Assembly (NCBI RefSeq): GCF_018603515.1
Contig: NZ_JACATN010000005.1
Coordinates: 186,001 to 250,000, forward strand
DNA from: Zobellia barbeyronii
GTDB taxonomy: Bacteria; Bacteroidota; Bacteroidia; Flavobacteriales; Flavobacteriaceae
Length of the DNA stretch: 64,000 nucleotides
Reading direction: 5' to 3'
The notes beneath the pieces were generated by a model. That model ran no database searches. It was not told where the DNA came from and saw only the letters and a list, made by a program, of their open reading frames with translations. Position 1 is the first letter of the stretch; each line of letters begins with the position of its first letter. Shown piece after piece: positions 41,801-42,954 of the stretch. The position numbers and the translations under genes were made by a program.

Positions 41801-41896
41801 AATACTTTTCGCAATGGAGCAAAAAACATTGTTTGAGGGACAGATTATTGTCCAATACTTGTTAAATTAGTTAAAGTGTAAGGTTTCTCGGCTAAG

Positions 41897-41930
41897 TTGT
41901 TCTGTTTTAACGTTTAAAGACGTACATTTG
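41897..41930 (+). promoter_or_regulatory. Promoter of the small repeat lipoprotein gene
   Basis: TACATTTG at 41923-41930 is a perfect TAnnTTTG -7 element. A TTG at 41897-41899 lies 23 bp upstream. The ATG of the small gene is 63 bp downstream. Confidence 0.55.
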
Positions 41931-41992
41931 ATGCTTTTTTTTCCTACTTTCGCTGAAATAACTAATTAATTTTTAATTTAAAACCCCTCAAA

Positions 41993-42169
41993 ATGAAAAA
42001 TTTAGTATTTGGTCTTATGGCATGTTTTACTTTGTTAGCTGTTTCTTGTGATTCTTCAACTACTGAAGAAGATTCAGTTTACGAACAAGGAGTGGACAAA
42101 AGAAAAATTCCTTCGCAAGCGGATAGTTTTGTTGACAAAAGAAAAATTCCTTCACAAGCAAATAAATAA
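41993..42169 (+). CDS. Small lipoprotein with two exact ten-residue repeats
   Basis: A 58-residue protein with a lipoprotein signal ending at lipobox LAVSC (Cys19). The body is only about 39 residues: an acidic stretch then two copies of VDKRKIPSQA (residues 34-43 and 47-56) and a final NK. The two coding copies (42092-42121 and 42131-42160) differ at three bases. All three are third-codon positions with no amino-acid change, so the peptide sequence is kept by selection. KR pairs in each copy could be cleavage sites. It has its own promoter and terminator. I do not recognise the family. It may be a secreted peptide precursor, a sorting or anchor peptide, or an envelope regulator. Confidence 0.8.
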   Translation: MKNLVFGLMACFTLLAVSCDSSTTEEDSVYEQGVDKRKIPSQADSFVDKRKIPSQANK

Positions 42170-42209
42170 ATTACTGTATTTACAAAAAACATAAATTTTA
42201 AGAATATAG

Positions 42210-42239
42210 AAAGGGTAATCAATAAATTACCCTTTTTTT
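42210..42239 (+). terminator. Intrinsic terminator of the small lipoprotein gene
   Basis: A perfect 10-bp stem AAAGGGTAAT/ATTACCCTTT (42210-42219 with 42226-42235), six-base loop, then a T run. It sits 40 bp after the stop and isolates the gene from the membrane protein at 42277. Confidence 0.88.
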
Positions 42240-42276
42240 CGTTACAAGAATTAGTAAAGATCATTCTTGAAAAAAA

Positions 42277-42954
42277 ATGCAGCAAAAATCCCCAGACAGC
42301 AGTAACAAAGCGCGAAAAAAAATCTTTATGGACTCCATAGGGGTTCTTTTAATCCTATTATCGCCCTTTATATTCAAACTACATCAATATCTACCAAGCG
42401 ACCCAAATGCAACAATAAGCTTTTTGGGCATAGAAATCGATAATCATGGATTTGTAGATATAAATACTTTCGCTTGGTTCTTACTGAGTAAAATAGTCCC
42501 TTTTTATTTATTCATACTTTGGTTTTTGACATGCAAACACTGGTGGTACCATATCATCTTAATTCCTGCTACCATGTACGCTTTTCAAATATACGAGGTG
42601 TTATTTTCAGAAGATAACATTGTTGACTCAAAAAACATTCTGTGGCTGTTACCTGTTTGCATGGTCGTTATTCCCTTGGTATATTTTATTAGACTAAAGT
42701 TATATGACAAATACGTTCACGGAATTGATTTAGAAGCCATGGAAGCAGAATTAACTGCTTTAAAGAAAAAAGAGGCCGCTAAATCCAATGACAAGAAAAT
42801 AGACAAATTCATTAGCAAAGAAACTTCGACAGATTCTTCAGGATATCAGTCAATGTCCGATAAAATAGACACTAAGCTATCTACAGATAATATTGAATCT
42901 AGCTTTAAGCAGTTTCAACTTAGATTTAGCAACTGGCTTCGACCTAAATTCTAA
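42277..42954 (+). CDS. Integral membrane protein, unassigned
   Basis: A 225-residue protein with four predicted transmembrane helices (about 20-40, 63-82, 88-108 and 118-140), with the Trp-rich HWWYHIILIPATMYAFQIYE around the third. A charged C-terminal tail follows (about 150-225), with KKKEAAKSNDKK and a Ser/Asp-rich stretch. No family recognised. It is 109 bp from ald in the same direction; the ald gene has its own palindromic upstream region. Confidence 0.6.
   Translation: MQQKSPDSSNKARKKIFMDSIGVLLILLSPFIFKLHQYLPSDPNATISFLGIEIDNHGFVDINTFAWFLLSKIVPFYLFILWFLTCKHWWYHIILIPATMYAFQIYEVLFSEDNIVDSKNILWLLPVCMVVIPLVYFIRLKLYDKYVHGIDLEAMEAELTALKKKEAAKSNDKKIDKFISKETSTDSSGYQSMSDKIDTKLSTDNIESSFKQFQLRFSNWLRPKF

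Follow-up and report, generated by a model that had tools for sequence, protein, structure and literature searches.

Does the small lipoprotein gene of Zobellia barbeyronii that encodes two identical copies of a short peptide stand alone, or does it belong to a larger system? The gene lies in a stretch of 64,000 nucleotides of contig NZ_JACATN010000005.1 (hereafter the window; all coordinates refer to it, and all features lie on its + strand), where it had been singled out as a possible precursor of secreted peptides. As judged from sequence comparison, it is one half of a two-gene cassette rather than a lone repeated lipoprotein. The other half, a gene at 42277–42954 that co-varies with it, was missed in the original prediction, as was an array of three units phased by 21 bp upstream of the promoter.

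The peptide gene, its partner and their chromosomal site

The lipoprotein ORF was located at 41993–42169 and encodes, as predicted, 58 amino acids with a lipobox (Cys19). The product would be a small exported lipoprotein composed of a signal peptide ending at this Cys, an acidic linker and two peptide units, VDKRKIPSQA, encoded at 42092–42121 and 42131–42160 (39 nt from start to start). The 30-nt cores of the two units differ only by GTG/GTT, TCG/TCA and GCG/GCA, all synonymous, in agreement with the three third-position differences described at the outset. By searching one genome per species with a profile built from 26 relatives, family matches at E ≤ 1e-8 were found in 66 of the 397 Flavobacteriaceae genomes searched (counted by hand), so the gene does have homologues elsewhere. 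Those in a phylum sample of 296 genomes all fell within Flavobacteriaceae, and weaker profile matches were mostly restricted to the signal peptide.

The usual gene order at the canonical loci is porX-tsaE-peptide-4TM-ald, where 4TM denotes a predicted four-helix membrane protein. Among 70 canonical loci the 4TM gene comes next in 69 (the exception being L122), tsaE lies 5′ in 65, porX in 48, and ald lies 3′ in 63, loci truncated at contig ends being counted among those lacking porX, tsaE or ald; nine further fetched loci are relatives at other sites. In the window, the peptide and 4TM genes are the only ones between tsaE and ald. The 4TM protein (225 aa) was assigned its four helices by eye and from a low-confidence model (AlphaFold2 with four sequences, mean pLDDT 49.5); it has no Pfam or NCBIfam domain, and a PDB sequence search gave no match. 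Regarding the peptide, the family search, PADLOC and PHROGs returned nothing. NCBIfam NF050142 (PG1828 family lipoprotein) scored 22 bits against a curated cut-off of 50, with only the signal peptide (residues 1–30) aligned, and membership in that family was rejected. By sequence, then, the cassette matches no family model searched, and the view that it belongs to no described family stands across Pfam, NCBIfam, PADLOC and PHROGs.

Some loci carry more than one copy. L131 (3997–5147) has six near-identical peptide genes about 201 bp apart followed by a single 4TM gene, L125 (3369–4296) has four near-identical ones before a single 4TM gene, and in L108 and L112 the whole peptide-4TM unit is triplicated in tandem, each with its own peptide ending. 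In addition, 28 long ORFs in 25 loci (for instance L099: 3817–5067), mostly of 400–450 aa, contain one or two stretches resembling the 4TM protein; wherever their orientation was seen, they precede tsaE on the other strand, and the L099 product had no Pfam or NCBIfam match. Their products are possibly another part of the system.

The 4TM family extends further than the strong peptide matches, being present in 140 of the 199 Flavobacteriaceae genomes sampled; across the phylum, 198 sampled genomes gave 6 matches, all of them in Flavobacteriaceae. In 20 of the 140 genomes, hand-picked and without a strong peptide match, an ORF of 44–54 aa with a signal-peptide-like start was always found, its end lying shortly ahead of the 4TM gene or overlapping its beginning (20/20). 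A lipobox was present in 0/20 of these ORFs; 10/20 end in [ILF][KR]xPxxG, and 16/20 carry [VI][DE][KRG] near the end. By these motifs, the peptide is lipidated and sometimes repeated in one branch and not lipidated in the other.

Family members of the lipoprotein branch share the signal peptide, the Cys and the acidic linker, and their C-termini contain units resembling [VI]D[KR]xx[IVL]. Repeats within the gene were found at 18 of 79 loci; VDKTKIPSQAKKQSF, VDKTQLINGDKKNSF and GIDKSEVIVK are examples of the repeated units. When neighbouring copies at these 18 loci are compared, 128.5 of 201.7 synonymous sites differ versus 19.5 of 764.3 nonsynonymous ones (pS 0.64, pN 0.026), where finding the copies by protein similarity lowers pN and leaves pS unaffected. 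Same-type orthologues gave a comparable picture in the C-terminal part (pS 0.51, pN 0.06, six pairs). These substitution patterns show that the C-terminal units are kept by selection, as had been suspected from the window gene. Recent duplication is an unlikely cause of the identical repeats, since synonymous sites are near saturation overall, with L077 and L088 as exceptions (only 2 differing sites each). The notion of a peptide precursor remains plausible; dibasic processing, which had been read from the KR pairs, is neither conserved nor general, since the residue after [VI][DE][KR] in 97 units is T in 47, S in 16, K in 13 and R in 8.

As for the location of the lipoprotein, the LES surface-export signal, a motif definition for surface lipoproteins given in passages of PMC5080379, was searched for behind the Cys as C-X-K-(D/E)2 or Q-A-(D/E)2 and occurred in 0/79 canonical copies, and surface display through LES was rejected. 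Two acidic residues fall within +2 to +6 in 8/79 copies, and the acidic peak is at +8 and +9. Since no copy has the signal, the lipoprotein probably faces the periplasm, where the 4TM loops should also lie. With such a placement, peptide and partner would more likely meet within the envelope, or the peptide would be released; a plain surface signal would be harder to explain. The Cys itself is lost in 4 of 83 canonical copies, which retain the C-terminal motif.

Peptide type and the membrane half of the partner change together

The four Zobellia loci carry three C-terminal types (IPSQA twice, INGDK and DGGRR) and alanine dehydrogenases of 96–98% mutual identity. Their 4TM proteins are nearer to same-type proteins of other genera than to other-type Zobellia ones: identity was 67% between the window and L072 (other genus, same type) and 51% between the window and L091 (same genus, other type); likewise 62% for L087/L077 (other genus, same type) and 54% for L077/L072 (same genus, other type); and 71% for L091/L090 (other genus, same type). 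At the nucleotide level, the window shared with L087 and L091 72–81% around the ATG, 25–71% from +80 to about +680, 62–76% in the remainder of the 4TM gene and 78–94% over most of ald; the stretch from tsaE to the promoter was also low (56–61%). By sliding identity within Zobellia, the type-variable cassette was placed at approximately 42050–42690, reaching from the C-terminal part of the peptide to about 4TM residue 138.

Partial Mantel correlations given ald were calculated for 56 single-copy loci (999 permutations). The C-terminal part of the peptide correlated with 4TM residues 1–135 (r = 0.51, p = 0.001; 0.48 without near-duplicates; 0.32 to 0.43 per helix segment), and partial r was 0.14 for the 4TM tail, 0.08 for the signal-peptide part (p = 0.10), −0.03 for TsaE (51 loci) and −0.007 for PorX (29 loci). 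A role of the neighbouring PorX, a secretion regulator, had been suggested; its similarity does not track peptide type, and a link to PorX (T9SS) was dropped for want of evolutionary coupling, the comparison concerning similarity and not regulation. The 4TM tail contains a GID stretch that resembles the peptide motif by eye; this resemblance was also set aside, as the stretch is nearly constant across peptide types.

Trees were built for 32 loci. In the tree of the 4TM membrane part, peptide types were grouped (INGDK 100/99, DGGRR 100/98, window with L071 and L072 95/88), and a Zobellia clade (AU p = 2e-63) and the L089/L095 pair (p = 4e-80) were rejected; in the ald tree, Zobellia was recovered (99/97) and the types as clades were rejected (p = 1.8e-4, 7e-82 and 0.009). 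The loci were chosen by the analyst and the groups named after the similarities were seen, so these p-values are descriptive. L093/L094 (IPSQKD) were not firmly joined to the other IPSQ members. Even two species of one genus with 100% identical ald (rounded) have different peptides and an identity of only 44% in the 4TM part. By sequence, mixing of types is not universal among genera, since the same-genus pairs L075/L076, L088/L096, L093/L094, L118/L126 and window/L071 each share one. Taken together, the identities, partial correlations and trees show that peptide type and the membrane half of the 4TM protein change together, and that both have moved jointly from one species to another at a single chromosomal site, a movement not shared by the signal-peptide part, TsaE, PorX or alanine dehydrogenase.

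Promoter box and phased repeats

The gene was expected to have a promoter region of its own and a strong terminator, and this was borne out. The terminator hairpin at 42208–42237 has a 12-pair stem and a 6-nt loop with T's after it, and a similar hairpin lies 3′ of 50 of 83 canonical family copies compared to 6 of 415 shuffled sequences. Regarding the promoter, the TAnnTTTG box originally named, TACATTTG, does exist at 41923–41930; it is probably not the box used, being off the conserved position and absent from the corresponding sequence of L071, a close relative. When upstream regions were aligned, the box given by the best TTTTTCCTACATTTG match lay 47–53 nt 5′ of the ATG in 43 of 69, and in the window this position, 48 nt before the ATG, is occupied by TACTTTCG (41945–41952; one mismatch to TAnnTTTG), which is the likely promoter box.

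Further upstream lie three direct repeats with a 21-bp period (41867–41921; units at 41867–41879, 41888–41900 and 41909–41921). From the 69 extracted regions, those with poor boxes were excluded in both of the following counts. The 70 nt 5′ of the box showed a 21-bp periodicity (62 regions, z = 19), and a three-unit matrix (about −77, −56 and −35 nt from the box) outscored every shuffled sequence in 41 of 47 regions including the window, the matrix having been trained on the same regions that it scored and the periodicity test needing no such training. The window triple scored 22.7 versus a shuffled maximum of 6.9. LytTR sites are described in passages of PMC4847170 and PMC6193735 as direct repeats of 9–11 nt, 11–13 nt apart, just 5′ of the promoter, a geometry that the array in most regions shares with its three units and 21-bp period. 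By this geometry the phased repeats would be a LytTR-like operator, as a candidate site. The window genome has 14 LytTR matches, all away from the peptide locus, where no LytTR gene is found.

When ten genomes were searched with the operator pattern, 28 matches were obtained versus 8 for the reversed control. Seven of the 28 were at peptide genes, in five genomes, and the window genome had no match; given these numbers, single other targets are tentative. In L151, L167 and L169 (three genera), a gene for a NeuD/PglD-like sugar acyltransferase (by eye) has a 21-bp repeat pair at its start codon or just 5′ of it, a position that would suit repression. In L157, L159, L150 and L149, the genes preceded by operator-like repeats encode a TPR protein and an S8 peptidase (both by Pfam) and, judging by eye, a CAP-like lipoprotein and two small proteins whose C-terminal ends are T9SS-like, so that a regulon of exported proteins is possible.

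Readings of the cassette and comparison with known systems

We favour the reading that the peptide and the 4TM protein form a self-recognising, pherotype-like signal-receptor cassette, with the peptide as ligand of a cognate membrane partner, and give this reading a probability of about one half. The peptide would be exported and anchored as a lipoprotein, and the downstream gene would supply a dedicated four-helix membrane partner; the peptide would bind the extracytoplasmic face of its own partner and be a poor ligand for partners of other types, making the pair a self-recognising signal and receptor. In the lipoprotein branch, a LytTR-type regulator may drive expression through the three phased repeats 5′ of the promoter, and internal repeats and whole-gene arrays could raise the copy number of the ligand.

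Related lipoproteins beside sensor-like genes bear on this reading. Weaker relatives with the consensus SCTxDSxAExDxLYETQATEGDDG were found in 71 of 199 genomes at E ≤ 1e-4, a count that includes some canonical genes. At the best 30 relative loci, a large ORF starts at −31 to +221 nt in 28, 27 of these having a TPR_12 match, on stretches that end too early for a kinase domain to appear. For two TPR neighbours most of the length could be read; both contain TPR repeats together with a HATPase_c (histidine-kinase ATPase) domain, and the protein after each gives a weak response-regulator match that stays below the Pfam cut-off. Tandem acidic units are found in lipoproteins encoded next to TPR proteins, three in L226 (TDDDDNPVVEREG) and five in L227 (STDGDDTPTDDRQ). 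For other relatives, the gene that follows encodes a small membrane protein of a different kind (by eye). As a tentative extension, many Flavobacteriaceae may practise peptide self-recognition from one locus through a type-matched four-helix receptor, with types exchanged between genera and kept diverse and with sister lipoproteins working with TPR-domain sensor kinases.

Several observations count against a signal. With no known domain, the 4TM protein offers no visible route to a response; the TPR- and kinase-linked branch has no match in the window genome; in the non-lipidated branch the promoter array rose just above the null maximum in 1 of 19 valid regions; repeats occur in only 18 of 79 loci; the missing LES makes a simple surface signal less likely; and adjacent genes on one recombination tract can co-vary without ever touching.

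A polymorphic toxin with its immunity protein, in which the exported peptide harms cells of another 4TM type and the own 4TM protein protects, is an unlikely reading, even though a small exported peptide beside a small membrane protein, with types matched and exchanged between genera and peptide genes amplified (L131, L125), is what it would lead one to expect. A fixed chromosomal site and a partner in 140 of 199 genomes are unlike an accessory bacteriocin, the units are short and hydrophilic (by eye), relatives precede TPR proteins and kinases, and neither PADLOC nor PHROGs gave a match. We regard as equally doubtful that the peptide serves the 4TM protein as a subunit or regulator within the envelope, having no role between cells and changing type through phages, other selection or recombination; the genes adjoin, the pair is triplicated as a block in L108 and L112 and the surface-export signal is missing from all 79 canonical forms, all of which fits, yet by itself this reading leaves unexplained why congeneric species have different types that recur in other genera, and why one precursor holds several identical units. 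Linkage alone, that is, a hypervariable tract swapped by recombination, would fit a contiguous variable stretch whose neighbours share one history, but is very improbable because the contiguous signal-peptide part does not co-vary (0.08) and helices hundreds of bases away do, even if break points could fall at the signal-peptide border by chance of conservation.

To our knowledge, no peptide signal with matched receptor types is known in Bacteroidota, and none was found in the open-access literature, which is weak evidence of absence. If true, the signal-receptor reading would make this the first pherotype-like peptide signalling system in the phylum, and the pair is small enough for deletion, swapping and synthesis, making cell-cell recognition directly testable in a major polymer-degrading marine group. 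Under the rival readings too, it is an undescribed pair of peptide and membrane protein whose types change together.

Among known systems, the PG1828 lipoprotein (NF050142) resembles the peptide gene product as a small Bacteroidota lipoprotein with a similar signal peptide. Yeast precursors of the alpha-factor type hold several identical peptide copies per exported precursor, as some family members do here; unlike in yeast, dibasic sites are not conserved and most members have a single unit. As in pherotype systems, types vary jointly within conserved flanks, the variable partner being a candidate receptor; histidine kinases were found only beside related lipoproteins at other loci, and no processing or modification gene lies between tsaE and ald in the window (the other loci were searched for four marker genes). 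With neither a kinase nor a processing gene of its own, the pair does not count as a cassette of the ComQXP or agr kind.

LytTR Regulatory Systems (HdrRM, BrsRM), as described in parts of PMC6193735, have direct repeats just 5′ of the promoter and a membrane-protein partner, both of which are seen here; in contrast to them, the peptide locus has no LytTR gene. In staphylococcal agr, the agrB-agrC region is hypervariable (PMC6834553, in part), and AgrA is a LytTR regulator that binds direct repeats 5′ of its promoters (PMC4227749, in part). The present cassette is similar in its hypervariable peptide-partner region and its LytTR-like repeats 5′ of the promoter, whereas it has no agr-type processing enzyme, kinase or regulator gene beside it, and its peptide is linear in sequence, often repeated, and lipoprotein or Sec-exported. 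In ComQXPA of Bacillus subtilis, the peptide gene and the 5′ end of the receptor gene vary, the rest is conserved and groups are defined (passages of PMC6334282). The pair here differs in that it includes neither a ComQ-like gene nor a histidine kinase, in the recurrence of the same types across genera and in being known from its sequence, with signalling a proposal; it is alike in that an exported peptide adjoins a membrane protein and both vary as types within conserved flanks.
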